Assembly: GCA_029582155.1 (NCBI GenBank)
Contig: CM055897.1
Location: 15,552,482 to 15,616,481, forward strand
Source of the DNA: Panopea generosa
Taxonomy: Eukaryota; Mollusca; Bivalvia; Adapedonta; Hiatellidae
DNA length: 64,000 nucleotides
Direction: 5' to 3'
The translations under genes were made by a program, and so were the position numbers. A model generated the notes under the pieces. The model was given only the letters and a program-made list of their open reading frames with translations, was not told the DNA's origin and ran no database searches. Shown here in pieces: positions 1 through 53,608 of the stretch; position 1 is the stretch's first letter; each line of letters begins with the position of its first letter.

Positions 1-2010
1 AAGGCTAAGCACATGGTCCATTGGTAGAGCATCAAAACCCAGGATCAGAGGGTCATGGGTTCCATTCTCCCCCAAGGCTAAGCACATGGTCCAGTGGTAG
101 AACATCAAAACCCAGGATCAGAGGGTCATGGGTTCCATTCTCCCCCAAGGCTAAGCACATGGTCCATTGGTAGAGCATCAAAAACCCAGGATCAGAGGGT
201 CATGGGTTTCATTCTCCCCCAAGGCTAGGCACATGGTCCATTGGTAGAGCATCAAAACCCAGGATCAGAGGGTCATGGGTTCCACTCTCCCCCAAGGCTA
301 AGCACATGGTCCATTGGTAGAGCATCAAAAACCCAGGATCAGAGGGTCATGGGTTCCATTCTCCCCCAAGGCTAGGCACATCGTCCATTGGTAGAGCATC
401 AAAAACCCAGGATCAGAGGGTCATGGGTTCCATCCTCCCCCAAGGCTAAGCACATGGTCCATTGGTAGAGCATCAAAACCCAGGATCAGAGGGTCATGGG
501 TTCCATTCTCCCCCAAGGCTAAGCCTATGGTCCAGTGATAGAACATCAAAACCCAGGATCAGAGGGTCATGGGTTCCATTCTCCCCCAAGGCTAAGCACA
601 TGGTCCATTGGTAGAGCATCAAAACCCAGGATCAGAGGGTCATGGGTTCCATTCTCCCCCAAGGCTAAGCACATGGTCCAGTGGTAGAACATCAAAACCC
701 AGGATCAGAGGGTCATGGGTTCCATTCACCCCCAAGGCTAAGCACATGGTCCACTGGTAGAGCATCAAAAACCCAAGATCAGAGGGTCATGGGTTCCATT
801 CTCCCCCAAGGCTAGGCACATGGTCCATTGGTAGAGCATCAAAACCCGGGATCAGAGGGTCATGGGTTCCATTCTCCCCCAAGGCTAAGCACATGGTCCA
901 GTGGTAGAGCATCAAAACCCAGGATCAGAGGGTCATGGGTTCCATTCTCGCCCAAGGCTAGGCACATGGTCCATTGGTAGAGCATCAAAACCCGGGATCA
1001 GAGGGTCATAGGTTCCATTCTCCCCCAAGGCTAAGCACATGGTCCAGTGGTAGAGCATCAAAACCCAGGATCAGAGGGTCATGGGTTCCATTCTCCCCCA
1101 AGGCTAAGCACATGGTCCAGTGGTAGAACATCAAAACCCGGGATCAGAGGGTCATGGGTTCCATCCTCCCCCAAGGCTAGGCACATGGTCCATTGGTAGA
1201 GCATCAAAAACCCAGGATCAGAGGGTCATGGGTTCCATTCTCCCCCAAGGCTAGGCACAAAATCCATTGGTAGAGCATCAAAAACCCAGGATCGGAGGGT
1301 CATGGGTTCCATTCTCCCCCAAGGCTAAGCACATGGTCCAGTGGTAAAGCATCAAAACCCAGGATCAAAGGGTCATGGGTTCCATTCTCCCCCAAGGCTA
1401 AGCACATGGTCCATTGGTAGAGCATCAAAAACCCAGGATCAGAGGGTCATGGGTTCCATTCTCCCCCAAGGCTAGGCACATGGGCCATTGGTAGAGCATC
1501 AAAAACCCAGGATCAGAGGGTCATGGGTTCCATTCTCCCCCAAGGCTAGGCACATGGTCCATTGGTAGAGCATCAAAACCCAGGATCAGAGGGTCATGGG
1601 TTCCATTCTCCCCCAAGGCTAAGCACATAGTCCAGTGGTAGAGCATCAAAAACCCAGGATCGGAGGGTCGTGGGTTCCATTTTCCCCAAAGGCTAGGCAC
1701 ATGGTCCAGTGGTAGAGCATCAAAACCCGGGATCAAAGGGTCATGGGTTCCATTCTCCCCCAAGGCTAGGCACATGGTCCATTGGTAGAGCATCAAAACC
1801 CAGGATCAGAGAGTCATGGGTTCCATTCTCCCCAAAGGCTAGACACATGGTCCATTGGTAGAGCATCAAAAACCCGGGATCAGAAGGTCATGGGTTCCAT
1901 CCTCCCCCAAGGCTAAGCACATGGTCCATTGGTAGATCATCAAAACCCAGGATCAGAGGGTCATGGGTTCCATTCTCCCCCAAGGCTAGGCACATGGTCC
2001 AGTGGTAGAG
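1..2010 (+). repeat. Satellite block duplicated at 3667-5675, copy 1
   Basis: This block and 3667-5675 share the same order of private variants at a constant offset of about 3666 bp. Examples are the gggtttcattc variant at about 204 and 3870, the aagcctatgg variant at 518 and 4184, and the identical stretch at 1521-1796 and 5186-5461. The offset equals 50 repeat units. Similarity in variant order fades after about 2010. The block may extend to the left of the window. Confidence 0.88.
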
Positions 2011-3666
2011 CATTAAAACCCAGGATCAGAGGGTCATGGGTTCCATTCTCCCACAAGGCTAAGCACATGGTCCATTGGTAGAGCTTCAAAACCCAGGATC
2101 AGAGGGTCATGGGTTCCATTCTCCCCCAAGGCTAGGCACATGGTCCAGTGGTAGAGCATTAAAACCCAGGATCAGAGGGTCATGGGTTCCATTCTCCCCC
2201 AAGGCTAGGCACATGGTCCAGTGGTAGAGCATCAAAACCCAGGATCAGAGGGTCATGGGTTCCATTCTCCCCCAAGGCTAGGCACATGGTCCAGTGGTAG
2301 AGCATCAAAAACCCAGGATCAGAGGGTCATGGGTTCCATTATCCCCCAAGGCTAGGCACATGGTCCAGTGGTAGATTATTAAAACCCAGGATCAGAGGGT
2401 CATGGGTTCCATTCTCCCTCAAGGCTAAGCACATGGTCCATTGGTAGAGCATCAAAACCCAGAATCGGAGGGTCATGGGTTCCATTCTCCCCCAAGGCTA
2501 AGCACATGGTCCAGTGACAGAGCATCAAAACCCATGATCAGAGGGTCATGGGTTCCATTCTCCCTCAAGGCTAAGCACATGGTCAAGTGGTAGAGCATCA
2601 AAACCCAGAATCGGAGGGTCATGGGTTCCATCATCCCCCAAGGCTAAGCACATGGTCCAGTGACAGAGCATCAAAACCCAGGATCAAAGGGTCATGGGTT
2701 CCATTCTCCCTCAAGGCTAAGCACATGGTCCAGTGGTAGAGCATCAAAAACCCAGGATCAGAGGGTCATGGGTTCCATTCTCACCCAAGGCTAAGCACAT
2801 AGTCCAGTGATAGAGCATCAAAACCCAGGATCAGAGGGTCATTGGATCCATTCTCCCCCAAGGCTAAGCACATGGTCCAGTGGTAGAACATCAAAACCCA
2901 GGATCAGAGGGTCCTGGGTTCCATTCTCCCCCAAGGCTAGGCACATGGTCCATTGGTAGAGCATCAAAACCCGGGATCAGAGGGTCATGGGTTCCATTCT
3001 CCCCCAAGGCTAAGCACATGGTCCATTGGTAGAGCATCAAAAACCCAGGATCAGAGGGTCATGGGTTCCATTCTCCCCCAAGGCTAGGAACATGGTCCAT
3101 TGGTAGAGCATCAAAACCCAGGATCAGAGGGTCATGGGTTCCATTCTCCCCCAAGGCTAGGCACATGGTCCATTGGTAGAGCATCAAAACCCAGGATCAG
3201 AGGGTCATGGGTTCCATTCTCCCCCAAGGCTAAGCACATGGTCCAGTGACAGAGCATCAAAACCCAGGATCAGAGGGTCATGGGTTCCATTCTCCCCCAA
3301 GGCTAGGCACATGGTCCATTGGTAGAGCATCAAAACCCAGGATCAGAGGGTCATGGGTTCCATTCTCCCCCAAGGCTAAGCACATGGTCCATTGGTAGAG
3401 CATCAAAAACCCAGGATCAGAGGGTCATGGGTTCCATTCTCCCCCAAGGCTAGGCACATGGTCCATTGGTAGAGCATCAAAACCCAGGATCAGAGGGTCA
3501 TGGGTTCCATTCTCCCCCAAGGCTAAGCACATGGTCCATTGGTAGAGCATCAAAAACCCAGGATCAGAGGGTCATGGGTTCCATTCTCCCCCAAGGCTAG
3601 GTACATGGTCCATTGGTAGAGCATCAAAAACCCAGGATCAGAGGGTCATGGGTTCCATCCTCCCCC

Positions 3667-5675
3667 AAGGCTAAGCACATGGTCCATTGGTAGAGCATCA
3701 AAACCCAGGATCAGAGGGTCATGGGTTCCATTCTCCCCCAAGGCTAAGCACATGGTCCAGTGGTAGAACATCAAAACCCAGGATCAGAGGGTCATGGGTT
3801 CCATTCTCCCCCAAGGCTAAGCACATGGTCCATTGGTAGAGCATCAAAAACCCATGATCAGAGGGTCATGGGTTTCATTCTCCCCCAAGGCTAGGCACAT
3901 GGTCCATTGGTAGAGCATCAAAACCCAGGATCAGAGGGTCATGGGTTCCACTCTCCCCCAAGGCTAAGCACATGGTCCATTGGTAGAGCATCAAAAACCC
4001 AGGATCAGAGGGTCATGGGTTCCATTCTCCCCCAAGGCTAGGCACATCGTCCATTGGTAGAGCATCAAAAACCCAGGATCAGAGGGTCATGGGTTCCATC
4101 CTCCCCCAAGGCTTAGCACATGGTCCATTGGTAGAGCATCAAAACCCAGGATCAGAGGGTCATGGGTTCCATTCTCCCCCAAGGCTAAGCCTATGGTCCA
4201 GTGGTAGAACATCAAAACCCAGGATCAGAGGGTCATGGGTTCCATTCTCCCCCAAGGCTAAGCACATGGTCCATTGGTAGAGCATCAAAACCCAGGATCA
4301 GAGGGTCATGGGTTCCATTCTCCCCCAAGGCTAAGCACATGGTCCAGTGGTAGAACATCAAAACCCAGGATCAGAGGGTCATGGGTTCCATTCACCCCCA
4401 AGGCTAAGCACATGGTCCACTGGTAGAGCATCAAAAACCCAAGATCAGAGGGTCATGGGTTCCATTCTCCCCCAAGGCTAGGCACATGGTCCATTGGTAG
4501 AGCATCAAAACCCGGGATCAGAGGGTCATGGGTTCCATTCTCCCCCAAGGCTAAGCACATGGTCCAGTGGTAGAGCATCAAAACCCTGGATCAGAGGGTC
4601 ATGGGTTCCATTCTCGCCCAAGGCTAGGCACATGGTCCATTGGTAGAGCATCAAAACCCGGGATCAGAGGGTCATGGGTTCCATTCTCCCCCAAGGCTAA
4701 GCACATTGTCCAGTGGTAGAGCATCAAAACCCAGGATCAGAGGGTCATGGGTTCCATTCTCCCCCAAGGCTAAGCACATGGTCCAGTGGTAGAACATCAA
4801 AACCCGGGATCAGAGGGTCATGGGTTCCATCCTCCCCCAAGGCTAGGCACATGGTCCATTGGTAGAGCATCAAAAACCCAGGATCAGAGGGTCATGGGTT
4901 CCATTCTCCCCCAAGGCTAGGCACAAAGTCCATTGGTAGAGCATCAAAAACCCAGGATCGGAGGGTCATGGGTTCCATTCTCCCCCAAGGCTAAGCACAT
5001 GGTCCAGTGGTAGAGCATCAAAACCCAGGATCAAAGGGTCATGGGTTCCATTCTCCCCCAAGGCTAAGCACATGGTCCATTGGTAGAGCATCAAAACCCA
5101 GGATCAGAGGGTCATGGGTTCCATTCTCCCCCAAGGCTAGGCACATGGGCCATTGGTAGAGCATCAAAAACCCAGGATCAGAGGGTCATGGGTTCCATTC
5201 TCCCCCAAGGCTAGGCACATGGTCCATTGGTAGAGCATCAAAACCCAGGATCAGAGGGTCATGGGTTCCATTCTCCCCCAAGGCTAAGCACATAGTCCAG
5301 TGGTAGAGCATCAAAAACCCAGGATCGGAGGGTCGTGGGTTCCATTTTCCCCAAAGGCTAGGCACATGGTCCAGTGGTAGAGCATCAAAACCCGGGATCA
5401 AAGGGTCATGGGTTCCATTCTCCCCCAAGGCTAGGCACATGGTCCATTGGTAGAGCATCAAAACCCAGGATCAGAGGGTCATGGGTTCCATTCTCCCCAA
5501 AGGCTAGACACATGGTCCATTGGTAGAGCATCAAAAACCCGGGATCAGAGGGTCATGGGTTCCATCCTCCCCCAAGGCTAAGCACATAGTCCATTGGTAG
5601 AGCATCAAAACCCAGGATCAGAGGGTCATGGGTTCCATTCTCCCCCAAGGCTAGGCACATGGTCCAGTTGTAGAG
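3667..5675 (+). repeat. Satellite block duplicated from 1-2010, copy 2
   Basis: Second copy of the approximately 2-kb block, about 27 units long. It differs from copy 1 by scattered single-base changes only, which indicates a recent block duplication or unequal exchange inside the array. Confidence 0.88.
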
Positions 5676-7705
5676 CATCAAAACCCAGGATCAGAGGGTC
5701 ATGGGTTCCATCCTCCCCCAAGGCTAGGCACATGGTCCATTGGTAGAGCATCAAAAACCCAGGATCAGAGGGTCATGGGTTCCATTCTCCCCCAAGGCTA
5801 GGCACATGGTCCATTGGTAGAGCATCAAAAACCCAGGATCAGAGGGTCATGGGTTCCATTCTCCCCCAAGGCTAAGCACATGGTCCAGTGGTAGAGCATC
5901 AAAACCCGGGATCAGAGGGTCATGGGTTCCATTCTCCCCCAAGGCTAAGCACATGGTCCAGTGGTAGAACATCAAAACCCGGTATCAGAGGGTCATGGGT
6001 TCCATCCTCCCCCAAGGCTATGCACATGGTCCATTGGTAGAGCATCAAAAACCCAGGATCAGAGGGTCATGGTTTCCATTCTCCGCCAAGGCTAGGCACA
6101 TGGTCCATTGGTAGAGCATCAAAAACCCAGGATCGGAGGGTCATGGGTTCCATTCTCCCCCAAGGCTAAGCACATGGTCCATTGGTAGAGCATCAAAAAC
6201 CCAGGATCAGAGGGTCATGGGTTCCATTTTCCCCCAAGGCTAGGCACATGGTCCATTGGTAGAGCATCAAAAACCCAGGATCAGAGGGTCATGGGTTCCA
6301 TTCTCCCCCAAGGCTAAGCACATGGTCCATTGGTAGAGCATCAAAAACCCAGGATCAGAGGGTCATGGGTTCAATTTTCCCCCAAGGCTAGGCACATGGT
6401 CCATTGGTAGAGCATCAAAAACCCAGGATCAGAGGGTCATGGGTTCCATTCTCCCCAAAGGCTAGGCACATGGTCCAGTGGTAGAGCATCAAAAACCCAG
6501 GATCAGAGGGTCATGGGTTCCATTCTCCCCCAAGGCTAAGCACATGGTCCAGTGGTAGAGCATCAAAACCCAGGATCAGAGGGTCATGGGTTCCATTCTC
6601 CCCCAAGGCTAAGCACATGGTCCATTGGTAGAGCATCAAAAACCCAGGATTGGAGGGTCATGTGTTCCATTCTCCCCCAAGGCTAAGCACATGGTCCATT
6701 GGTAGAGCTTCAAAAACCCAGGATCAGAGGGTCATGGGTTCCATTCTCCCCCAAGGCTAGGCACATGGTCCATTGGTAGAGCATCAAAAACCCAGGATCA
6801 GAGGGTCATGGGTTCCATTCTCCCCCAAGGCTAAGCACATGGTCCATTGGTAGAGCATCAAAAACCCAGGACCAGAGGGTCATGGGTTCCATTCTCCCCC
6901 AAGGCTAGGCACATGGTCCATTGGTAGAGCATCAAAAACCCAGGATCAGAGGGTCATGGGTTCCATTTTCCCCCAAGGCTAGGCACATGGTCCATTGGTA
7001 GAGCATCAAAACCCAGGATCAGAGGGTCATGGGTTCCATTCTCCCCCAAGGCTAGGTACATGGTCCATTGGTAGAGCATCAAAAACCCAGGATCGGAGGG
7101 TCATGGGTTCCATTCTCCCCCAAGGCTAGGCACATGGTCCATTGGTAGAGCATCAAAACCCAGAATCAGAGGGTCACGGGTTCCATTCTCCCCCAAGGCT
7201 AAGCACATAGTCCAGTGGTAGAGCATCAAAAACCCAGGATCAGAGGGTCATGGGTTCCATTCTCTTCCAAGGCTAAGCACATGGTCCAGTGGTAGAGCAT
7301 CAAAAACCCAGGATCAGAGGGTCATGGGTTCCATTCTCCCCCAAGGCTAAGAACATGGTCCAGTGGTAGAGCATCAAAAACCCAGGATCAGAGGGTCATG
7401 GGTTCCATTCTCCCCCAAGGCTAGGCACATGGTCCATTGGTAGAGCATCAAAACCCGGGATCAAAGGGTCATGGGTTCCATTCTCCCCCAAGGTTAAGCA
7501 CATAGTCCATTGGTAGAGCATCAAAACCCAGGATCGGAGGGTCATGGGTTCCATCCTCCCCAAGGCTAGGCACATGGTCCATTGGTAGAACATCAAAACC
7601 CAGGATCGGAGGGTCATGAGTTCCATTCTCCCCCAAGGCTAAGCACATGGTCCAGTGATAGAGCATCAAAACCCAGGATCAGAGGGTCATGGGTTCCCTT
7701 CTCCC

Positions 7706-7860
7706 CCAAGGCTATGTGTGGTGTCCTTGAGCAAAACACTTATTCCACATATGCTTCGTACTTAGGTTCTATCCAGAAAGGCCTCGAGCATGAATTGTCA
7801 AGTTGTTATAACTTGTTACGCAATCAAAGTAAAATTAATATGTTTAAAATAAACAGATGG
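7706..7860 (+). mobile_element. SINE A body at the end of the satellite
   Basis: After the last satellite unit the sequence continues with gtgtccttgagcaaaacact, a pause, then ttctatccagaaaggc, gttataacttgtta and an A-rich end containing aaaataaacag. The same body follows the tRNA-like head in the SINE at 27066-27275 (gtccttgagcaagacact, ttctctccaggaat, gtaagaacttgtt, aaaataaataag). This marks the satellite as expanded from the head of this very SINE. No second body copy is seen in the array. Confidence 0.9.
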
Positions 7861-12390: not shown

Positions 12391-14610
12391 TTAATTCACT
12401 TTTGTGCAATATGTATTGAAATACAGTTTTGTGCAATATGTACCATAATACAGTGTTGTTTTTTTAAATATGAATTGCAATACAGAGTTTTGCAATATGT
12501 AATGTAATACACTTTTGTGAAATATGTATTGTATTACAGTTTTGTAAAATATGTATCGTAATACAGCGTTGTTGTTTTTAAATATGAAAACGCAATATAA
12601 AAGTTTTGCAATATGCAATGTAATACAGTATTGTGCAATATGTAGTGTAATACAGTTTTGTACATTATTAATTGTAATACAATTTTGTACAATATGTATT
12701 GTATACAGATTAATACAATATATATCGTAATACAGTGTTGTTTTTTATATATGAATTATAATACAGTTTTTTGCAATATGCTTACAAACAGTTTCGTACA
12801 ATATGTAGTGTAAACAGTTATGTACAATATGTAGTGTATACAGTTATGTACAATATGTAGTGAAATACAGTTATGTACAATATGTAGTGTTATACAGTTA
12901 TGTACAATATGTAGTGTATACAGTAATGTACAATATGTAGTGTAAAACAGTTATGTACACTATGTAGTGTATACAGTAATGTACAACATGTAATGTATAC
13001 AGTTTTGTACATTGTTTATTGTAATACAGTTATGTACAATATGTAGTGTTATACAGTTATGTACAATATGTAGTGTATACAGTAATGTACAATATGTAGT
13101 GTAAAACAGTTATGTACACTATGTAGTGTATACAGTTATGTACAATATGTAGTGTATACAGTTTTGTACATTATTTATTGTAATACAGTTATGTACAATA
13201 TGTAGTGTAATACAGTTTTGCACATTATTTATTGTAATACATTTATGTACAATATGTAGTGTAATACTGTTTTGCACATTATTTATTGTAATACAGATAT
13301 GTACAATATGTAGTGTTATACAGTTTTGCACATTATTTATTGTAATACAGTTATGTACAATATGTAGTGAAATACAGTTTTGCACATTATTTATTGTAAT
13401 ACAGTTATGTACAATATGTAGTGTAATACAGTTATGTACAATATGTAGTGTAATACAGTTATGTACAATATGTAGTGTAATACAGTTATGTACAATATGT
13501 AGTGTATACAGTTATGTACAATATATAGTGTAATACAGTTATGTACAATACATAGTGTATACAGTTATGTACAATATATAGTGTAATACAGTGTTGTTTT
13601 TTTAAATATGAATTGCAAAACAGTGTTTTGCAATGTGCAATGCAATACAGTTTTGTGCAATATATAGTGTAATACAATTTTGTACAATATGTATTGTAAA
13701 CAGTTTTATACAATATGTATCATTATACAGTGTTTATTTTTTAAGTATGAATTGCAATACCATGTCTCGCAATATGCAATGTAATATGGTTTTGTGCAAT
13801 ATGTAGTGTAATACAGTTTTGTACATTATTTATTGTAATACAGTTATGTACAATATGTATTGTATACAGTTTTGAGCAATATGTATCATAATACAGTTTT
13901 ATGCAATGTGTATTGTATTACAGCTTTCTGACATATGTATTATAATACAGCTTTCTGCAATATACATTATAATACACTTTGTATTACAGTTTAGTACAAT
14001 TTGTAATATATTTATGTGCAATATGTAACACAATAGTTTTACACAATATGCATTGTAAAAGTTTTGTGCAATACATCTGTCATAGTTCTGTGCAATATGT
14101 AATGTAATATAATTTTACGCAATATGCACTGTTATAGTTTTGTGCAATATGTATTGTAAAACAGTTTTTGTGCAATATGTACTGCAACACATTTTATGCA
14201 ATATGCATTATAATACATGTTTGTACAGATATGTAATGTAATGTAATACAAACACAGTTTTGTGCAATATGTAATGAAATACATTTTTGCAATATCTAAT
14301 GTAATACAGATTTGTGCAATATATAATGTATGAAGTTTTGTGCAATGTGCATTGCAACAGTTTTGTGTAATATGTAATGCAATACAGGATTGTACAATAT
14401 GTAATGTAATACAAATACATTTCTGTGCTTTTTGTAATGTAATAGTTTTTTTGCAATTTGTAATAAAATACATATTTGTGCAATTTGTAAGGTATGAAGT
14501 TTTGTGCAATGTGCATTGTAACAGTTTTGTGTGATATGTAATGCAATACATGTTTGTACAATATGTAATGTAATACATTTATGTGCAATATGTATTGAAA
14601 TACAGTTTCA
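12390..14610. repeat. AT-rich ~27-bp minisatellite
   Basis: Degenerate tandem copies of a unit with core tgtacaatatgtagtgtaat and acagttatg fill 2.2 kb. Periods range from about 24 to 29 bp, and 54-bp dimers occur (13120-13400). A longer module with ttgttttttt and aaatatgaattgcaatac recurs near 12455, 12565, 12735, 13590 and 13730, so the array has a mosaic higher-order structure. Units become more diverged after 13900. Long open frames on both strands come from the repeat and are not considered genes. Confidence 0.92.
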
Positions 14611-19266: not shown

Positions 19267-20205
19267 AATCATCAAGAGGGGCCTTGATCTAAGCGAATCC
19301 AGAGAATTGATGTCACAGTATAATATGGGGACAACAAAATTATCACTGCCAGCTAGATTCTTCCTCATAGTTTTTTAAATGTTGTATTAACAATACCATC
19401 GTCGAATACCCAGGGGTGTCAATTCGGATACAATCCATCCATCACACTCGGGAAATTATGCTAGCTCTGTGTCGTTTTATTTGAACAGAACAGAACAAAA
19501 TACAGCTAATGTTTAAAACGTCTTATCAAAATGGCATTTGCACGAAACTACCATTGCGATTGGATAACATTCCCTTCACGAAATCGTGAAGGAACTAATC
19601 ATATAGTTGCATCGTGGCTTGGTAGAAATGACACAAAGCTAGTGTAATATCCCACGGGTATCCGACTATGCAACAATACATGCACAATCCGGTTATTTTT
19701 GGGAGCAATCGAGTTTGAAAATGTATAAGGTTGTTTCTGAAAGGTTATTTGAGGTTTCAGACGCGTGAAAAACAAACATTATGCGCATTAATTACAATTT
19801 GCCTCTGATTTACCTAATTGTGGATTACCTTTGAACTTATGATTGAAAAGGATTGTGGAATATGGGGGAAGAAAACTAAATAGCATTTTTTTCCCAGCTT
19901 TATGAACCAAAGTATTAATAATGGATTTGCTTTCTGAAATTGGGCCACTCCTTAATATTTATAGTTATCAGGGCTGTTGATTGCACTTTTTTGAATGGGG
20001 TCGGGGGGCCCCTGACTTTAGGAAACTTTTTCCCAAATATTTTCTTTGTTTTTTTTTACATTTTGAAATTGGGAATTGTGTTACTTTAGATAGGGAATAA
20101 AAAGATACTATTTGCCATTGGAAATGGGGCAGAATTACAACGGCCCCAAAAAAACAATGACTCCTTTGTTTATTAGTATTATAGACAGGCCTATGGCAAA
20201 AAAGT
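19267..20205. other. Intron sequence, no feature seen
   Basis: Mostly unique-looking sequence, including a C/G-rich patch near 19995 (ggggtcggggggcccctg). No exon or repeat family recognised. Confidence 0.45.
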
Positions 20206-20210
20206 TGAAA

Positions 20211-21356
20211 CTGACCCCTGTGTAAATGTCTATATCAATACCGTAGTTGAATACTGGCCCCTGTGTAAATGTCTATATCAATACCGTAGTTGAATACGGG
20301 CCCCTGTGTAAATGTCTATATCAATACCGTAGTTGAATACTGGCCCCTGTGTAAATGTCTATATCAATACCGTAGTTGAATACTGGCCCCTGTGTAAATG
20401 TCTATATCAATACCGTAGTTGAATACTGGCACCTGTGTAAATGTCTATATCAATACCGTAGTTGAATACTGGCCCCTGTGTAAATGTCTATATCAATACC
20501 GTAGTTGAATACTGGCCCCTGTGTAAATGTCTATATCAATACCGTAGTTGAATACTGGCCCCTGTGTAAATGTCTATATCAATACCGTAGTTGAATACTG
20601 GCCCCTGTGTAAATGTCTATATCAATACCGTAGTTGAAACTGGCCCCTGTGTAAATGTCTATATCAATACCGTAGTTGAATACTGGCCCCTGTGTAAATG
20701 TCTATATCAATACCGTAGTTGAATACTGGCCCCTGTGTAAATGTCTATATCAATACCATAGTTGAATACTGGCCCCTGTGTAAATGTCTATATCAATACC
20801 GTAGTTGAATAAATGTCTATATCAATACCGTAGTTGAAACTGGCCCCTGTGTAAATGTCTATATCAATACCGTAGTTGAATACTGGCACCTGTGTAAATG
20901 TCTATATCAATACCGTAGTTGAATACTGGCCCCTGTGTAAATGTCTATATCAATACCATAGTTAAATACTGGCCCCTGTGTAAATGTCTATATCAATACC
21001 GTAGTTGAATACTGGCCCCTGTGTAAATGTCTATATCAATACCATAGTTGAATACTGGCCCCTGTGTAAATGTCTATATCAATACCGTAGTTAAATACTG
21101 GCCCCTGTGTAAATGTCTATATCAATACCGAAGTTGAAACTGGCCCCTGTGTAAATGTCTATATCAATACCGTAGTTAAATACTGGCCCCTGTGTAAATG
21201 TCTATATCAATACCGTAGTTGAATACTGGCCCGTGTAAATGTCTATATCAATACCGTAGTTGAATACTGGCCCCTGTGTAAATGTCTATGTCAATACCAT
21301 AGTTGAATACTGGCCCCTGTGTAAATGTCTATATCAATACCATAGTTGAATACTGG
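20211..21356 (+). repeat. 43-bp minisatellite, highly homogeneous
   Basis: About 27 copies of a 43-bp unit that starts ctggcccctgtgtaaatgtc and ends ccgtagttgaata. Most copies are identical. Variants are single changes (gtag/atag, cccc/cacc), loss of the tact step before ctggcc (near 20636, 20838 and 21139), and one truncated copy near 20810. No flanking SINE is recognised as its source. Confidence 0.96.
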
Positions 21357-22040
21357 CATTCTTTGATCATAAATACCATAAAACTCTTCAAACAGCTTCC
21401 ACCATGTAGAACTGACCAACAATTCAATCGAAGCAATCAAACTAGGCGATACATACAAATCGCGAAGGTAAATACTAATAACCGCAGAGCTTGTTATGAT
21501 GAATTGAAATCAGTTGCGATTATCTGGTACTGCTGATGTTTTGACATTTACATCATACAGATAGTATTGATGTCTTACTGCCTGCTCTATATTGATCAGG
21601 AAAGATCTCTACGAAAAAACCCATTGTTCATTGCTAACTCTCCAAGGAGGTGGATTTTGTTGGAAGAAATGATGTGAATCTTTTTACAGATGTGCCATTA
21701 CATTATAGCATAATGTCTTACATGGAGCAAGTGTCAGTTTTAACTCCCCACCCCCAACTTGCTAAATTTCTATATTTCTATATTGGACTATTCTATCTTT
21801 AGTTTAAGACCATTCCATTTCCATTTAGAAAGAGTGTTCATATAAGAATTCACTGATAACAAGTCAATGGCGTCATTAAATTTTGTCAGACTCCCCAAGA
21901 ATGATAAATCTGAACATTAAAATTAAAGAAAGTGCTCTTTTCTACTACATCGCGTGTTGGAGACTGCAAGTCTGTAACAGTAGTGCAATCAGAAGCATAT
22001 TTAAATAATTTAACATATGAACTAAAACAATGACTAAATC
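21357..22040. other. Intron sequence, no feature seen
   Basis: No exon or recognised repeat. A short open frame at 21303-21536 begins inside the array and has no family resemblance. Confidence 0.45.
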
Positions 22041-23941: not shown

Positions 23942-24990
23942 TGGTCGACTACAGGACTGGTAGACATCACCATATGACTACAGGACAGGTAGACAGCACC
24001 ATATAACTACAGGACAGGTAGACATCACCATATGACTACAGGACTGGCAGACAACACCATATGACTACAGGGCTGGTAGACAGCACCATGACTACAGGGC
24101 TTGTAGACAGCACCATGACTACAGGGCTTGTAGACAGCACCATGACTACAGGGCTTGTAGACAGCACCATATGACTACAGTACTGGTAGACAGCACCGCA
24201 CCATGACTACAGGACTGGTAGACAACACCATATGACCACAGGACAGGTAGACATCACCATTTGACTACAGGACAGGTAGACGGCAGACAGCACCATGACT
24301 ACAGGGCTTGTAGACAGCACCATATGACTACAGGGCTTGTAGACAGCACCATATGACTACAGGACTGGTAGACAGCACCGCACCATATGACTACAGGACT
24401 GGTAGACAGCACCATATAACTACAGGACAGGTAGACATCACCATATAACTACAGGACTGGTAGACAGCACCATGACTACAGGGCTTGTGGACAGCACCAT
24501 ATGACTACAGGACTGGTAGACAACACCATGACTACAGCACTGGTAGACAGCACCATATGACTACAGGACTGGCAGACAACACCATATGACTACAGCGCTG
24601 GAAGACAGCACCATTAATACAGAGCTTGGAGACAGCACCATGACTACAGGGCTTGTAGACAGCACCATATGACTACAGGACTGGTAGACAGCACCGCACC
24701 ATATGACTACAGGACTGGTAGACAACACCATATGACAACAGGACTGGTAGACAGCACCGCACCATATGACTACATGACTGGTAGACAGCACCATTTGACT
24801 ACAGGAGTGGCAGACAGCATCATATGACTACAGGGCTGGTAGACATCACCATGACTACAGGACTGGTAGACAACACCATATGAGTACAGTGCTTGTAGAA
24901 AGCACAGTATGACTAGAGGACTGGTAGACAGCACCATTTGACAGTAGATAGTACCACATGACTACAGGGCTGGTTGAGCACCAGTAGAGC
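23942..24990 (+). repeat. ~29-bp minisatellite (gactacaggactggtagaca)
   Basis: About 37 copies of a unit with core gactacaggactggtagaca plus gcaccatat. Unit length varies (about 26, 29 and 34 bp) through loss of the tat step or duplication of gcacc. Sub-variants (ggcttgt, ggacagg, ggactgg) recur in blocks, indicating local segment duplication. The minus-strand open frame at 24561-24794 is a by-product. Confidence 0.94.
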
Positions 24991-27065: not shown

Positions 27066-27275
27066 TGTGGAGCTCGAGGTCCAGTGGTAGAGCACCAAAC
27101 CCATGATCGGAGGGTCGTAGATTCAATCCTCCGCCACGGCTATGTGAGATGTCCTTGAGCAAGACACTTTCTGCATATGCTTAGTACTGGTTCTCTCCAG
27201 GAATACTTCAAGAGTGATTTGTCTAAGTTGTAAGAACTTGTTTCACAATCAATGTAAAATAAATAAGTTTTAACT
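27066..27275 (+). mobile_element. SINE A, complete single copy (parent type of the satellite)
   Basis: The tRNA-like head has box A gaggtccagtggtagagcac and box B gtagattcaatcctcc. It is followed by ccacggctatgtgagatgtc, cttgagcaagacactttctg, agtactggttctctccagga, and an A-rich end with aatgtaaaataaataag. The head matches the 73-bp satellite unit and the body matches 7706-7860, so this monomer shows what the satellite arose from. A third copy is at 53452-53608. Confidence 0.9.
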
Positions 27276-27443
27276 AATTCCCCTGAAAATGACAAAAATA
27301 TTACGTAATGGTTCGTGGTCAAGTGAATCAGATATTTGTGACTCCTCTCAACGGAGGCATAATAAAAGTTGGAAGTGCAAGGGTTATGGTTTAGAACCAA
27401 AATGAAAGGAACATAGTTTTAACACTATTTTGTCACTTTCTAG

Positions 27444-31650: not shown

Positions 31651-31819
31651 TAATTTATTGATTAAAATTAAACTAGACAACAGTCATTATAGTAATGAAA
31701 AAATTATAGAAAAGACATCATCTCTTGGAGAAGAAATTAATTATAGATGTCTTTGAGCAGGTAGACAACCATCTGTACAAAGTTTAAAGTGACCTCTCGC
31801 AGCAAGCAATTCATCATTT

Positions 31820-32135
31820 ACATGAGTGACCCCTATGAGCAAGCCTTTCATCAACTGTACATGTTAGCTCTACTGGAGCAAGCCGTCCCTCAACTGTACA
31901 CGTTAGCCCTATTGGAGCAAGCTGTTCCTCAACTGTACACGTTAGCCCTTTTGGAGCAAGCCGTCCCTCAACTGTACAAGTTAGCCCTATTGGAGCAAAC
32001 AGTTCATAAACTGTACACGTTAGCCCTATTGGAGCAAGCTGTTCATCAACTGTACACTTTAGCCCTGTTGCAGCAAGCTGTTCATCAACTGTACACGTTA
32101 GCCCTATTGGAGCAAGCCGTTCCTCAATTGTACTA
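31820..32135 (+). repeat. 39-bp minisatellite, in-frame
   Basis: Eight copies of a 39-bp unit with core ctattggagcaagctgttcc and tcaactgtacacgttagcc. Because 39 is a multiple of three and the units lack stops in one frame, a 115-codon frame (31789-32136) stays open with period LALLEQAVPQLYT. The flanking text (catctgtacaaagtttaaag, agtttgatgagaatctttca) resembles the modular text of Helitron-like elements, so the repeat is probably a non-coding module expansion. Confidence 0.9.
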
Positions 32136-41587: not shown

Positions 41588-43400
41588 AACTGAACTTCAG
41601 CGGTACAGGAAACCCTTCAACTTACAACTTAAAGATGGGGAATTGAACTTCAGAGTTACAGACAATACTGAATGATAGGGAATTGAACTTCAGTGGTACA
41701 GACAATATTGAACGATAGGGAATTGAACTTCAGTGGTACAAGCAACACTGAAAGATAGTGAAATCAGTGGTTTAGGCAAAACTGAACGATAGGGAATTAA
41801 TTGAACTTCAGTGGTACAGGCAACACTGAAAGATAGGGAATTGAACTTCAGTGATACAGGCAACACTGAAAGATAGGGAATTCAGTGGTACAGGCAACAC
41901 TGAAAGATAGGGAATTCAGTGGTACAGGCAACACTGAAAGATAGGGAATTGAACTTCAGTGATACAGGCAACACTGAAAGATAGGGAATTCAGTGGTACA
42001 GGCAACACTGAAAGATAGGGAATTCAGTGGTACAGGCAACACTGAAAGATAGGGAAATGAACTTCAGTGGTACAGACAACACTGAAAGATAGGGAATTGA
42101 ACTTCAGTGGTACAGACAACACTGAAAGATGGGGAATTGAACTTCAGTGGTACAGACAATACTGAACGATAGGGAATTGAACTTCAGAGGTACAGACAAT
42201 ATTGAACGATAGGGAATTGAACTTCAGTGGTACAGGCAACACTGAAAGATAGGGAATTCAGTGGTACAGGCAACACTGAAAGATAGGGAATTCAGTGGTA
42301 CAGGCAACACTGAAAGATAGGGTATTGAACTTCAGTGGTACAGACAACACTGAAAGATAGGGAATTGAACTTCAGTGGTAGATTCCAACACTGAAAGATA
42401 GGGAATTCAGTGGTACAGGCAACACTGAAAGATAGGGAATTCAGTGGTACAGGCAACACTGAAAGATAGGGAAATGAACTTCAGTGGTACAGACAACACT
42501 GAAAGATAGGGAATTGAACTTCAGTGGTACAGACAACACTGAAAGATGGGGAATTGAACTTCAGTGGTACAGACAATACTGAACGATAGGGAATTGAACT
42601 TCAGAGGTACAGACAATATTGAACGATAGGGAATTGAACTTCAGTGGTACAGGCAACACTGAAAGATAGGGAATTCAGTGGTACAGGCAACACTGAAAGA
42701 TAGGGAATTCAGTGGTACAGGCAACACTGAAAGATAGGGAATTGAACTTCAGTGGTACAGACAACACTGAAAGATAGGGAATTGAACTTCAGTGGTAGAT
42801 TCCAACACTGAAAGATAGGGAATTGAACTTCAGTGGTACAAGCAATACAGAAAGATAGGGAATTGAACTTCAGTGGTACAGGCAACACTGAAAGATAGGG
42901 AATTGAACTTCAGTGGTACAGGCAACACTGAAAGATAGGGAATTGAACTTCAGTGGTACAAGCAATACAGAAAGATAGGGAATTGAACTTTAGTGGTACA
43001 AGCAATACAGAAAGATGGGGAATTGAACTTCAGTGGTACAGGCAACATTGAACGATAGGGAATTGAACTTCAGTGGTACAGGCAACAATGAACGATAGGG
43101 AATTGAACTTCAGTGGAACAGACAACACTGAACGATAGGGAATTGAACTTCAGTGGTACAGGCAACACTGAAAGATAGGGAATTGAACTTCAGTGGTACA
43201 GACAACACTGAAAGATAGGGAATTCAGTGGTACAGCCAATACTGCACAATAGGGAATTGAACTTCAGTGGTACAGACAACACTAAAAGATAGATAATTTA
43301 GTGGTTCAGCCAATACTGCACAATACGGAATTGAACTTCAGTGGTACAGACAACACTGAAAGATAGAGAATTCAGTGGTACAGGCAACCCTTCAAATTAC
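41588..43400 (+). repeat. 40/34-bp minisatellite (gggaattgaacttcagtggt)
   Basis: About 47 units of 40 bp with gatagggaattgaacttcag and tggtacaggcaacactgaaa. A shorter 34-bp form lacks tgaact. The two forms alternate in a repeated order, for example 42047-42460 recurs about 417 bp later, including the rare variant gattccaaca (at about 42380 and 42797). That is a higher-order duplication. Confidence 0.95.
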
Positions 43401-43960
43401 AACTTAAAGATGGGGAACTGAACTTGAATGTTACCAGTACCTCACCAAACAAGGTAGATGGTTGAAGGTTGACCTCTTCAAAGTTATTGAATTAGGCGAT
43501 ACTTTAAACCTTTCAAATTACAACTCCAAGATGGGGTATTGAACTCAAGTGATATTGGTTATTACCCTTGAGAGGTACTAAAAACAACTCTAAGAGAGAG
43601 ATTTGAACTTTAGTGAATCCACCATAGGTACTGAATATGATAGGTAATAGAGACCTTTTAAACTGCAACTGTATGATAGGGAATTGGACTAAAGTGATAA
43701 TGCAAATCACAAATCAAGGAAAGGGAATTGAACTCTAGTGATAATGCAAATCACAAATCAAGGAAAAGGAATTGACCTCTAGTGATACTGCAAATCACAA
43801 ATCAAGGAAAGGGAGCTGAACTTGAAGTGATATTAGAATTTTAAACCCTTCAAATTTAAAGATAGGGAATTAAACTTTAGTTAAGATAATGAATAGAACA
43901 AGACTAATGCTGGTAACCCTTCATATTATAACTTAAAGTAAAGGAATTGAACTTAAGTGG
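43401..43960 (+). repeat. Diverged flank of the 40-bp array
   Basis: Longer, decayed units containing aaacccttcaaattacaact, taaagatggggaactgaact and ctctagtgataatgcaaatc. They share the gaact(t/c)nagtg core with the arrays on both sides and look like the ancestral form. Confidence 0.75.
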
Positions 43961-45140
43961 TATGTAAAAATTTCATGAAAGTTGAACTTGAGTGGTATGT
44001 AATTATTTCATGAAAGCTGAACTTGAGTGGTATGTAATTATTTCATGAAAGCTGAACTTGAGTGGTATGTAATTATTTCATGAAAGTTGAACTTGAGTGG
44101 TATGTAATAATTTCATGAAATTTGAACTTGAGTGGTATGTAATAAATTCATGAAATTTGAACTTGAGTGGTATGTAATAATTTCATGAAATTTGAACTTG
44201 AGTGGTAATGAAAGCTGAACTTGAATGGTATGTAATAGTTTCATGAAAGCTGAACTTGAGTGGTTTGTAATTATTTCATGAAAGTTAAGTTGAACTTAAG
44301 TGGTATGTAATTATTTCATGAAAGTTGAGCTTGAGTGGTATGTAATAATTTCATGAAAGTTGAACTTGAATGGTATGTAATAATTTCATGAAAGTTGAAC
44401 TTGAATGGTATGTAATTATTTAATGAAAGTTGAACTTGAATGGTATGAAATTATTTCATGAAAGTTGAACTTGAATGGTATGTAATAGTTTCATGAAAGT
44501 TGAACTTGAATGGTATGTAATTATTTAATGAAAGCTGAACTTGAATGGTATGTAATAATTTCATGAAAGTTGAACTTGAATGGTATGTAATAATTTCATG
44601 AAATTTGAACTTGAGTGGTATGTAATAATTTCATGAAATTTGAACTTGAGTGGTAATGAAAGCTGAACTTGAGTGGTATGTAATAATTTCATGAAAGCTG
44701 AACTTGAGTGGTTTGTAATTATTTCATGAAAGTTAAGTTGAACTTAACTTGGTATGTAATTATTTCATGAAAGTTGAACTTGAGTGGTATGTAATAATTT
44801 AATGAAGTTGAACTTGAATGGTATGTAATAATTTCATGAAAGTTGAACTTGAATGGTATGTAATTATTTAATGAAAGCTGAACTTGAATGGTATGTAATT
44901 ATTTCATGAAAGTTGAACTTGAATGGTATGTAATTATTTCATGAAAGTTGAACTTGAATGGTATGTAATTATTTCATGAAAGTTGAACTTGAATGGTATG
45001 TAATAATTTCATGAAAGTTGAACTTGAATGGTATGAAATATTTAATGAAAGCTGAACTTGAATGGTATGTAATAATTTCATGAAAGTTGAACTTGAATGG
45101 TATGTAATTATTTCATGAAAGCTGAACTTGAGTGGTAGTT
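43961..45140 (+). repeat. 35-bp minisatellite (gaacttgagtggtatgtaat)
   Basis: About 33 units with tgaacttgagtggtatgtaa followed by ttatttcatgaaagt. Variants such as tgaacttgaatgg and aattatttaatg occur in blocks. The block with ttgagtggtaatgaaagctg recurs at about 44197 and 44645, indicating segment duplication. The core gaactt(g/c)agtggta is shared with the preceding array. It ends about 100 bp before the PLC-beta exon at 45244. Confidence 0.95.
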
Positions 45141-48758: not shown

Positions 48759-49016
48759 CTTATCCATATCTTTTAAAACATGAAACATTCCAGAGTGCAT
48801 ACCCCTGCTGTCAAACATACAGATTAACTGTGTTGACTTTTCTCCAATGTGGGAAAAGTACTACAAAGTTGGTATAGTATGAAAGAACTTTTTGATAAAT
48901 ATTTACATACATTCTAGATTTTTTAACAGAGGTTAAACTCTTTACTCATATTGAGTGGAAAGCCAGTTGACAGGTCAATCATTTTTATTACAAATGTCTA
49001 ATATTGTTTAGTTGTT

Positions 49017-49612
49017 TTTCAGCTTGATTATGAAGAAAGCTCAGAGCTTATATGAACCGGTCTTGAGCCAGCTTCCTGGTTAGAACCAGTACTGAGTGTT
49101 GTTAGCTTCCTGGTTAGAACCAGTACTGAGTGTTGTCAGCTTCCTGGTTAGAACCAGTACTGAGTGTTGTCAGCTTCCTGGTTAGAACCTGCAGTACTGA
49201 GTGTTGTCAGTTTCCTGGTTAGAACCTGCAGTACTGAGTGTTGTCAGCTTCCTTGTTAGAACCTGCATTACTGAGTGTTGTCAGCTTCCTGGTTAGAACC
49301 AGTGCTGAGTGTTGTCAGCTTCCTGGTTAGAACCTGCAGTACTGAGTGTTGTCAGCTTCCTGGTTAGAACCTGCAGTACTGAGTGTTGTCAGCTTCCTGG
49401 TTAGAACCTACAGTACTGAGTGTTGTCAGCTTCCTGGTTAGAACCAGTGCTGAATGTTGTCAGCTTCCTGGTTAGAACCAGTGCTGAGTGTTGTCAGCTT
49501 CCTGGTTAAAACCTGCAGTACTGATTGTGTTTTTCAGAGGCATCGGGTCAAGCTGGGGATCGAACCCACAACTTCTGGTGGCCAACACTATCCACTACAC
49601 TACCACTTGAAT
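49017..49612 (-). mobile_element. SINE B with an internal tandem expansion
   Basis: The left end ttcagcttgattatgaagaa, gctcagagcttatatgaacc and the right end tcgggtcaagctggggatcg, aacccacaacttctggtg, ccactacactacc are the two ends of SINE B (compare 35792-35972). Between them the segment holding cagcttcctggttagaacca is repeated 13 times (49068-49535). The rest of the SINE is single-copy, so the array grew inside the inserted SINE. Confidence 0.9.
49068..49535 (-). repeat. 34/37-bp minisatellite born inside SINE B
   Basis: Thirteen units made of cagcttcctggttagaacc, then agtactgagtgttgt (34 bp) or tgcagtactgagtgttgt (37 bp). The sequence of one unit is the normal single-copy SINE B segment seen at 35845-35880. 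Confidence 0.95.
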
Positions 49613-51444: not shown

Positions 51445-51692
51445 AGATTTAAAATTTGCATATTTTTATGTTATGAGGGTTCACAGATGGTCAGTTAACC
51501 TAACTACTCTTTCCTGAGATCCTGAAAGGTTAACCAGTACTTGAGCACAGTCCCAATCTCCGCAATGAACTGATAACTTTTCCACTTGAATCGGCGGTAA
51601 GAGGCGAATGATAATGAAATACAATGTCGTATATTATTCATTACAGAGCCAGGCGGGGATTCAAACTTATGATCTCTGGATTTATAGTCAGA
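51445..51692 (-). mobile_element. SINE C body feeding the 19-bp array
   Basis: The minus-strand SINE C is intact in tgagggttcacagatggtca, gttaacctaactactctttc, cttgagcacagtcccaatct, catttgaatccccg-type box B (ggcggggattcaaacttatg) and tctggatttatagtcagatg. At the box A segment gcgctaccaactcagctaa it passes directly into the 19-bp array. Confidence 0.88.
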
Positions 51693-52830
51693 TGCGCTAC
51701 CAACTCAGCTAACTGCTACCAACTCAGCTTACTGCTACCAACTCAGCTTACTGCTACCAACTCAGCTAACTGCTACCAACTCAGCTAACTGCTTCCAACT
51801 CAGCTAACTGCTACCAACTCAGCTAATCACTACCAACTCAGCTAACTGCTACCAACTCAGCTAATAACTACCAACTCAGCTAAATGCTTCCAACTCAGCT
51901 AATCACTACCGACTCAGCTAACTGCTACCAACTCAGCTAACTGCTACCAACTCAGCTAATCACTACCAACTCAGCTAACTGCTACCAACTCAGCTAATCA
52001 CTACCAACTCAGCTAACTGCTACCAACTTAGCTAATCACTACCAACTCAGCTAACTGCTACCAACTCAGCTAATCACTACCAACTCAGCTAACTGCTACC
52101 AACTCAGCTAATCACTACCAACTCAGCTAACTGCTACCAACTCAGCTTATCACTACCAACTAAGCTAACTGCTACCAACTCATCTAATCACTACCAACTC
52201 AGCTAACCGCTACCAACTCAGCTAATCGCTACCAACTCAGCTAACCACTACCAACTCAGCTAATCACTACCAACTCAGCTAACTGCTACCAACTCAGCTA
52301 ACCGCTACCAACTCAGCTAATCACTACCAACTCAGCTAACTGCTACCAACTCAGCTAATCACTACCAACTCAGCTAACTGCTACCAACTCAGCTAATAAC
52401 TACCAACTCAGCTAACGGCTACCAACTCAGCTAATCACTACCAACTCAGCTAAGCGCTACCAACTCAGCTAACCGCTACCAACTCAGCTAATCACTACCA
52501 ACTCAGCTAATCGCTACCAACTCAGCTAACCGCTACCAACTCAGCTAATCGCTACCAACTCAGCTAACTGCTACCAACTCAGCTAATCACTACCAACTCA
52601 GCTAATCACTACCAACTCAGCTAACTGCTACCAACTCAGCTAATCACTACCAACTCAGCTAACTGCTACCAACTCAGCTAATCACTACCAACTCAGCTAA
52701 CCGCTACCAACTCATCTAATCACTACCAATTCAGCTAACCGCAACCAACTCAGCTAACCGCTACCAACTCATCTAATCACTACCAACTCACCTAACCGCT
52801 GCCAACTCAGCTAACCGCTACCAACTCAGC
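51690..52830 (-). repeat. 19-bp minisatellite made of the SINE C box A segment
   Basis: About 60 copies of taccaactcagctaactgc and variants. Units ending ctgc, tcac, ccgc or tcgc alternate, giving a common 38-bp dimer (tcac then ctgc). On the minus strand the unit contains tagctgagttggtag, a full box A. The array starts exactly where the SINE C at 51445 reaches its box A, and it ends in aactcagctggcctggcaca at about 52820-52840, which may be the SINE's 5' edge. Confidence 0.96.
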
Positions 52831-52840
52831 TGGCCTGGCA

Positions 52841-53366: not shown

Positions 53367-53451
53367 TTAAAAGAAAATTTTAATATTTTGTTTTTAACGT
53401 AATGATTTTATATCCATTATGAAATTTCTTCTAACGTAACTTTAGATAAAT

Positions 53452-53608
53452 CACTCTCAAAGTATTGCTGGACAGAACCAGGGTTGAGCATATGAGGCAA
53501 ATGTGTCTTGCTCAAGGACACCACACCTGGCACCGTTGCAGAGGATCAAACCCACAACCATCCAATCATGGGTCTGCTACTCTACCACTAGACCACGCGC
53601 ACCACATT
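53452..53608 (-). mobile_element. SINE A, copy on the minus strand
   Basis: On the minus strand: head gcgtggtctagtggtagagt, ttgtgggtttgatcctct, then gtgtggtgtccttgagcaag and tggttctgtccagcaatact. It is a monomer with a single head. Plus-strand open frames over it are not genes. Confidence 0.85.

Follow-up and report, generated by a model that had tools for sequence, protein, structure and literature searches.

The 64,000-nucleotide stretch of the Panopea generosa genome analysed here (hereafter the window; contig CM055897.1, called C4 below, from C4:15552482 at window position 1 to C4:15616481 at its end) opens with a long tandem array that, as argued below, very probably grew in place from the transfer RNA (tRNA)-like head of a short interspersed element (SINE). 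Over window positions 1–7714, Tandem Repeats Finder (TRF) reports a period of 73, 105.1 copies and 94% matches, and splitting the sequence by unit start yields 105 units, all arranged head-to-tail, with 104 measured spacings of 73 bp (60 cases), 74 bp (43 cases) and 72 bp (1 case). A preliminary description of this DNA had counted about 105 heads, a figure that holds for the part within the window and falls short of the whole: the genome sequence to the left carries the array a further 2.8 kb, and the left end, which that description had left to be found, lies at C4:15549698 in the assembly (L039:5699), so that the full array comprises 143 units in 10,498 bp (C4:15549698–15560195). Mean unit identity, compared for 142 of the 143 units, is 94.1%, with 74 distinct sequences, and it peaks at 96.8% for a lag of 50 units, a peak caused by two copies of a 48-unit block, 50 units apart, which align over about 3,520 bp with 15 differences. 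The array has, in other words, grown by block duplication.

The source element, SINE A, is common in the genome (3,622 exact-anchor matches) and is represented here by a 211-bp consensus made from 30 genome copies, which were found via the copy at 27066. It has the marks of a tRNA-derived SINE, namely a boxed, tRNA-like 5′ head and target-site duplications at single copies: positions 2–74 fold as a tRNA-like cloverleaf (ARAGORN, at a permissive score), both RNA polymerase III (Pol III) boxes fit their consensus in 21 of the 30 ordinary copies, and a flanking repeat with p < 0.05 is found at 15 of the 30, some of these being near-duplicate loci. Scans of the window itself gave no match with ARAGORN and none at the gathering threshold with Rfam. 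The array unit aligns to positions 5–76 of the consensus with 77.9% identity, far above the background of 1000 unit shuffles (mean 48.7%, maximum 57.8%), and to single copies with 70.5% (27066) and 61.3% (53452) identity in global alignments of hand-cut segments, bearing out the proposal that it matches the head of the SINE at 27066. The unit is thus the tRNA-like head of SINE A plus about two more bases. The spacing from box A to box B, previously given as 44 bp, is about 45 bp by manual count on the unit.

At the right edge, the last array unit continues without a break, and in register, into the SINE A body up to position 211, so that the terminal unit reaches the SINE terminus (positions 63–211 of 211). 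This is the single body that had been placed at 7706–7860, and it is found within a few bases of that location (Table 1). Many heads with one body at the 3′ edge are the outcome expected of in-place duplication of a 5′ segment. The exact unit junction, CCCCCAAGGCTARGCACATGG, occurs 97 times in the 1.47-Gb genome, and all 97 occurrences lie at the window locus; the array is therefore a minisatellite confined to a single locus, and the idea of a dispersed satellite family, which we considered, was rejected on this ground. The statement that a SINE head became a satellite thus stands as regards the amplification of a head in tandem, and fails as regards the word satellite in its usual sense of an abundant repeat at several chromosome sites, since there is one 10.5-kb locus. 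By the features that define SINE-derived satellites (sSat), the array has a unit that resembles a defined part of a SINE present in the same genome, a terminal unit that runs to the SINE terminus and at least four homogeneous units; it does not have a unit type present at many loci.

Relatives of the array were found elsewhere in the genome by means of a head-array query, a pattern of two A boxes before the body (7 places) and a pattern of three A boxes, and part of the matched places was fetched. The three-A-box pattern gave 3,047 matches, compared with 496 for a reversed-pattern control, and many among the matches listed are unrelated repeats; the seven arrays from the two-A-box pattern have a body by construction, the body being part of the pattern. 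SINE A copies with 2, 3.6, 4, 8, 20 and more heads, of the kind the preliminary description had proposed to look for, were indeed found (Table 1). A single SINE body terminates seven of the ten arrays that were found blind to the body and have their 3′ edge in view (the window array, L040, the 83-bp type, L049, L050, L054 and L067; L052 and L056 are cut off at the edge of the fetched locus), and many genome copies of the satellite with no body at their edges, named earlier as an observation that would speak against a SINE origin, were not what we saw. By inspection, L063 and L065 have the same many-heads anatomy, derived from other SINEs, and L064 is a head-like array with no evident body.

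The seven of ten, the window array counted, also bear on the reading that the array arose independently of the SINE, from a tRNA gene or some unrelated repeat, and has a SINE body next to it by chance. It could account for a left edge that is not a SINE end, for the three other head arrays that lack a body and for a unit that stops no more than about two bases beyond the cloverleaf (positions 2–74), but it would make a coincidence both of this recurring arrangement and of the last unit's unbroken, in-register passage into the SINE body, and we regard it as very improbable.

The 83-bp type, with eight fetched loci (L048, L051, L055 and L058–L062, on C9, C1, C15, C13, C22 and C32), was also considered as a dispersed satellite of head arrays. 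This was rejected: each of the eight loci has long stretches of flank, beyond the array itself, in common with one or more of the others (87–97% alike), and the type is one array carried within a larger dispersed element. Copies of this one element hold from about 6 to 35 units, so that the array is unstable in length, and in two of the eight (L060 and L062) a body fragment alone is left. An inverted SINE fragment lies beyond the 83-bp array in all eight loci.

We consider it very probable that the window array is explained by in-place tandem growth of a SINE A head, and we infer the order of events and a DNA-level mechanism as follows. A single SINE A insertion would have undergone a tandem duplication in which position 76 was joined back to position 5, and the resulting two-head copy would have expanded in place to 143 units by replication slippage or by unequal exchange between units, with a block of about 48 units duplicated at once as a late step. 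Because the 3′ part of the SINE would have lain outside the duplicated segment throughout, it would be left as one copy on the right; loss or replacement of the 5′ end and the left flank would have followed later. The core of the preliminary description, tandem amplification of a SINE head, is in this way upheld by the sequence match, the unbroken run into the body and the independent multi-head copies; its satellite, its intron and its emphasis on the head are not.

Several observations weigh against this origin. The array begins within a unit, at CAAGGCTA, and its left edge is not the SINE 5′ end; the left flank consists of a truncated SINE B copy in reverse orientation (71% over positions 101–243), which stops 4 bp before the array. 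The flanks of the window array have no convincing flanking repeat (the best shared word is 5 bases; no p computed), and, with the left edge inside a unit, a start within one intact SINE is therefore not directly demonstrable. The unit junction of the window array has no evident microhomology or overlap. Elsewhere, the flanking repeat is not significant in five of the eight other array loci, and three of the ten body-blind head arrays (L006/L007, L053 and L057) have no body even in a relaxed search. As regards the emphasis of the preliminary description on the head, L077 is the mirror image, in which the head is single and body positions 105–185 are present 8.5 times; given that such body arrays exist, no special property of the head or of the Pol III promoter is needed.

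The edges and junctions of the other arrays bear on an alternative in which heads are added during retrotransposition: reverse transcriptase, at the 5′ end of the SINE RNA, would jump back, and multi-head SINEs would be inserted ready-made and expand later. The extra heads do lie at the 5′ end, and in several cases (L044, L045, L049, L050 and L057) the array starts at the SINE 5′ end or a few bases from it, for L049 by inspection. L054, which has four heads and a body, carries ACTCAAGT within one base of both ends (p = 0.028, uncorrected). These array starts and this flanking repeat count for in-place growth of an inserted SINE as well. A flanking repeat with p < 0.05, uncorrected, is found in three of the eight other array loci (L043, L049 and L054), abutting both ends in L054 only. 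A similar 5′ pattern is described in PMC3389668 for 136 human partial-Alu repeats beside full Alus. Yet the point of re-entry is often not position 1 (5, 8, 10, 11, 14, 16 and 19 in different arrays), and template jumping cannot produce the body arrays described below (L077, L080 and window 49015–49604). When places in the genome are ranked by their score against a head trimer, the top 40 are all single-headed, which is a weak sign that there is no young mobile multi-head master, as such a ranking favours near-identical single copies. On balance, we find template jumping unlikely, and in-place growth of an inserted head remains our preferred explanation. The unit junctions themselves are of several kinds: the 70-bp unit junction of L050 coincides with a near-repeat of the SINE, GTGGT at 10–14 and 80–84 (lag 70), the 20-bp unit junctions of L044 and L045 coincide with GTGGAGCGC/GTAGAGCAC, which recur at lag 20 in the SINE with 7 of 9 bases, and most other junctions have 0–5 bases overlapping or inserted. 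The 34-bp units hold about 14 bases with no match to the SINE. Several 34-bp SINE-head arrays, including L041 and L042, lie within about 110 kb at C1:11.82–11.93 Mb, which suggests that one 34-bp array has spread locally.

The relative frequency of head and body duplication was assessed by counting SINEs with an exact anchor that have a second anchor 58–88 bp away. Head anchors were duplicated in 7 of 3,622 cases, all 7 confirmed by BLAST, four of them being 20- or 34-bp arrays caught as multiples. With anchors from the first part of the body, 4 of 3,622 cases matched, with one real duplication (L070); the other three are one uninterrupted SINE each (BLAST), in which a mutated internal site probably passes for the second anchor. 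Anchors in the 3′ body gave 11 matches at 4 loci, set against 2,427 anchors; two of these loci are real arrays (L077 and L080), and L078 and L079 have no tandem body despite the match. With the false matches removed, the comparison is 7/3,622 for heads and 3/6,049 for the body (Fisher p = 0.047, or p = 0.088 with two neighbouring C1 loci counted once), and a preference for heads in amplification is possible but weak. Amplification exclusive to heads was rejected, as body segments are repeated beside a single head in L077 and, in the window, in the SINE D array at 49015–49604, and L080 is a real body array too. That SINE heads are preferred seeds of new minisatellites, through the near-repeats at lag 20 and lag 70 or through head addition during reverse transcription, is a tentative idea that we consider rather doubtful; if it were true, the arrays of this one genome, with two heads at one extreme and 143 at the other, would form a time series.

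The boxes of the Pol III promoter were scored unit by unit, with GWTCRANNC as the B-box consensus and with the A-box consensus. In the window array, the B box fits in 0 of 143 units, the A box in 48 of 143, and both in none; among eight other arrays scanned, A–B pairs were found in L047 only (10 pairs). These counts bear on the proposal that selection maintains the heads as an array that binds Pol III and TFIIIC, with a role in chromatin or in factor sequestration. The heads do retain tRNA gene spacing, and L047 has its 10 consensus-fitting pairs, but the fit of the B box in none of the window units, when 21 of 30 single SINEs carry the two boxes, and the other seven scanned arrays without a single A–B pair make this proposal exceedingly improbable. 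The B boxes have decayed, and no function is needed.

The location of the array inside an intron, as given in the preliminary description, found no support. Ten of the 101 open reading frames (ORFs) of at least 60 amino acids in the array-masked window were searched against Pfam, with nothing above the cut-off, so that a gene may still be present; an ORF over a 39-bp repeat (31765–32133) has a weak, sub-threshold Pfam match, and a PDB search with one window ORF gave no useful result.

The process itself is already known: the event is of the same kind as those that gave rise to the squamate SINE-derived satellites and the Alu-derived minisatellites, as these are described in the papers cited here (bivalve transposons are surveyed in PMC10294476, and PMC9659126 is a review). 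The squamate sSat1–3 consist of tandem units of about 70–290 nt from part of a tRNA SINE, few to hundreds in number, with a longer terminal unit that reaches the SINE end on one side, with segments that differ between loci and with unit subvariants that alternate (PMC10702118). The present arrays share these traits; the window array differs in that the squamate unit types occur at up to thousands of loci with a subtelomeric preference, whereas the window unit occurs at one, at 15.5 Mb of a 97-Mb contig, and here, within a single genome, tandem growth has affected several SINE families. Human Alu-derived minisatellites grow in tandem locally, from any region of the SINE; in some cases short direct repeats act as seeds, and in 136 cases partial Alus are repeated beside full ones, with the partial copies at the 5′ end (PMC3389668). 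They share with the present arrays the partial 5′ copies beside a full element and the growth of unit number by local duplication, but their mean unit numbers are 2.30–2.42, compared with up to 143 units in P. generosa. In another mollusc, the limpet Patella caerulea, the tandem repeat PcH-Sat likewise contains a SINE-derived segment, although its segment, which lacks boxes A and B, stems from the 3′ part of a Nin-SINE, and the satellite is abundant (about 10% of the genome) and pericentromeric (PMC11121367). The amphibian families PolIII/TAN, OAX, Rana/polIII and Hy/polIII are tandem repeats with a tRNA-like segment (PMC10702118, PMC9659126), whose SINE origin is judged inconclusive in PMC10702118, whereas here the source SINE and the leftover body are both present. 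Although the known process is unchanged, a single genome here makes legible how one mobile element gave rise to a minisatellite, with a size series of 2, 3.6, 4, 8, 20, about 43 and 143 heads, with an unamplified SINE remainder that shows which segment was duplicated and with junctions that can be tested.

The frequency of such seeding was gauged in a small background sample: of 29 loci with an ordinary SINE A copy, 5 were set aside as near-duplicates, and the remaining 24, 77,045 bases in all, were assessed with a rule that calls for two SINE matches inside an array and a library of four SINEs. Among the 15 arrays around ordinary SINE A copies, none satisfies the rule, and L031 has a single SINE A match; among the 12 window arrays, two do, and a third (51697–52831) has one SINE B match and counts as seeded by inspection. 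The idea that tandem arrays arise mainly from SINEs is thus unsupported in this small sample. The samples read hold about one tandem array per 5 kb, and the window minisatellites at 12392–14608, 20203–21357, 23947–24942 and 41627–45137 (27, 43, 29, 40 and 35 bp) have no match to the four SINEs tested; SINEs look like one ordinary substrate among others in a minisatellite-rich genome.

Table 1. SINE-derived features of the window (window coordinates) and SINE A head arrays at other loci of the genome
Feature	Position	Strand	SINE segment	Unit (bp)	Copies	Basis or remarks
Tandem array, right 105 of 143 units	1..7714	+	A 5-76	73/74	105	TRF, unit splitting, genome sequence left of window, SINE consensus alignment
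48-unit block, second copy	2055..5573	+				First copy C4:15550870-15554389; lag-50 identity, block alignment
Single SINE A 3′ part (end of head, body, tail)	7701..7851	+	A 63-211		1	BLAST of SINE A consensus, 85% identity
Full-length single-head SINE A, reference copy of the preliminary description	27067..27276	+	A		1	91% to consensus; flanking repeat p = 0.005
SINE D with one head, one tail and repeated body segment	49015..49604	-	D 4-102 (head side), D 86-172 (tail side), D 87-117 (between)	37	about 13	Repeated segment at 49069-49528
SINE B A-box stretch, then one remaining SINE B copy	51488..52831	-	B	19	about 60	TRF periods 38 and 57; BLAST; array 51695-52831, remaining copy 51488-51715; unit and count by inspection
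Second ordinary SINE A copy	53392..53605	-	A		1	79% to consensus
L040			A 2-75	73	8
L043			A		2 heads
L046			A 1-58	63	25 or more
L047			A 11-86	79	20 or more
L049			A 1-81	77	20
L050			A 10-84	70	about 43
L054			A 11-92	79	4
L067			A 16-87	72	3.6
L041, L042				34
L044, L045				20
L006 + L007 (one array)				62
L053				40
L057				78
83-bp head array type				83		8 fetched loci

Two further observations concern single SINE copies. At C1:23853501 and C1:24140390, SINE copies share the start of the body and have different tRNA-like heads, as if heads had been swapped between SINE families. One SINE A copy occurs on three contigs (L018, L019 and L021, on C12, C11 and C8) with identical near flanks, and therefore probably lies inside another dispersed repeat.

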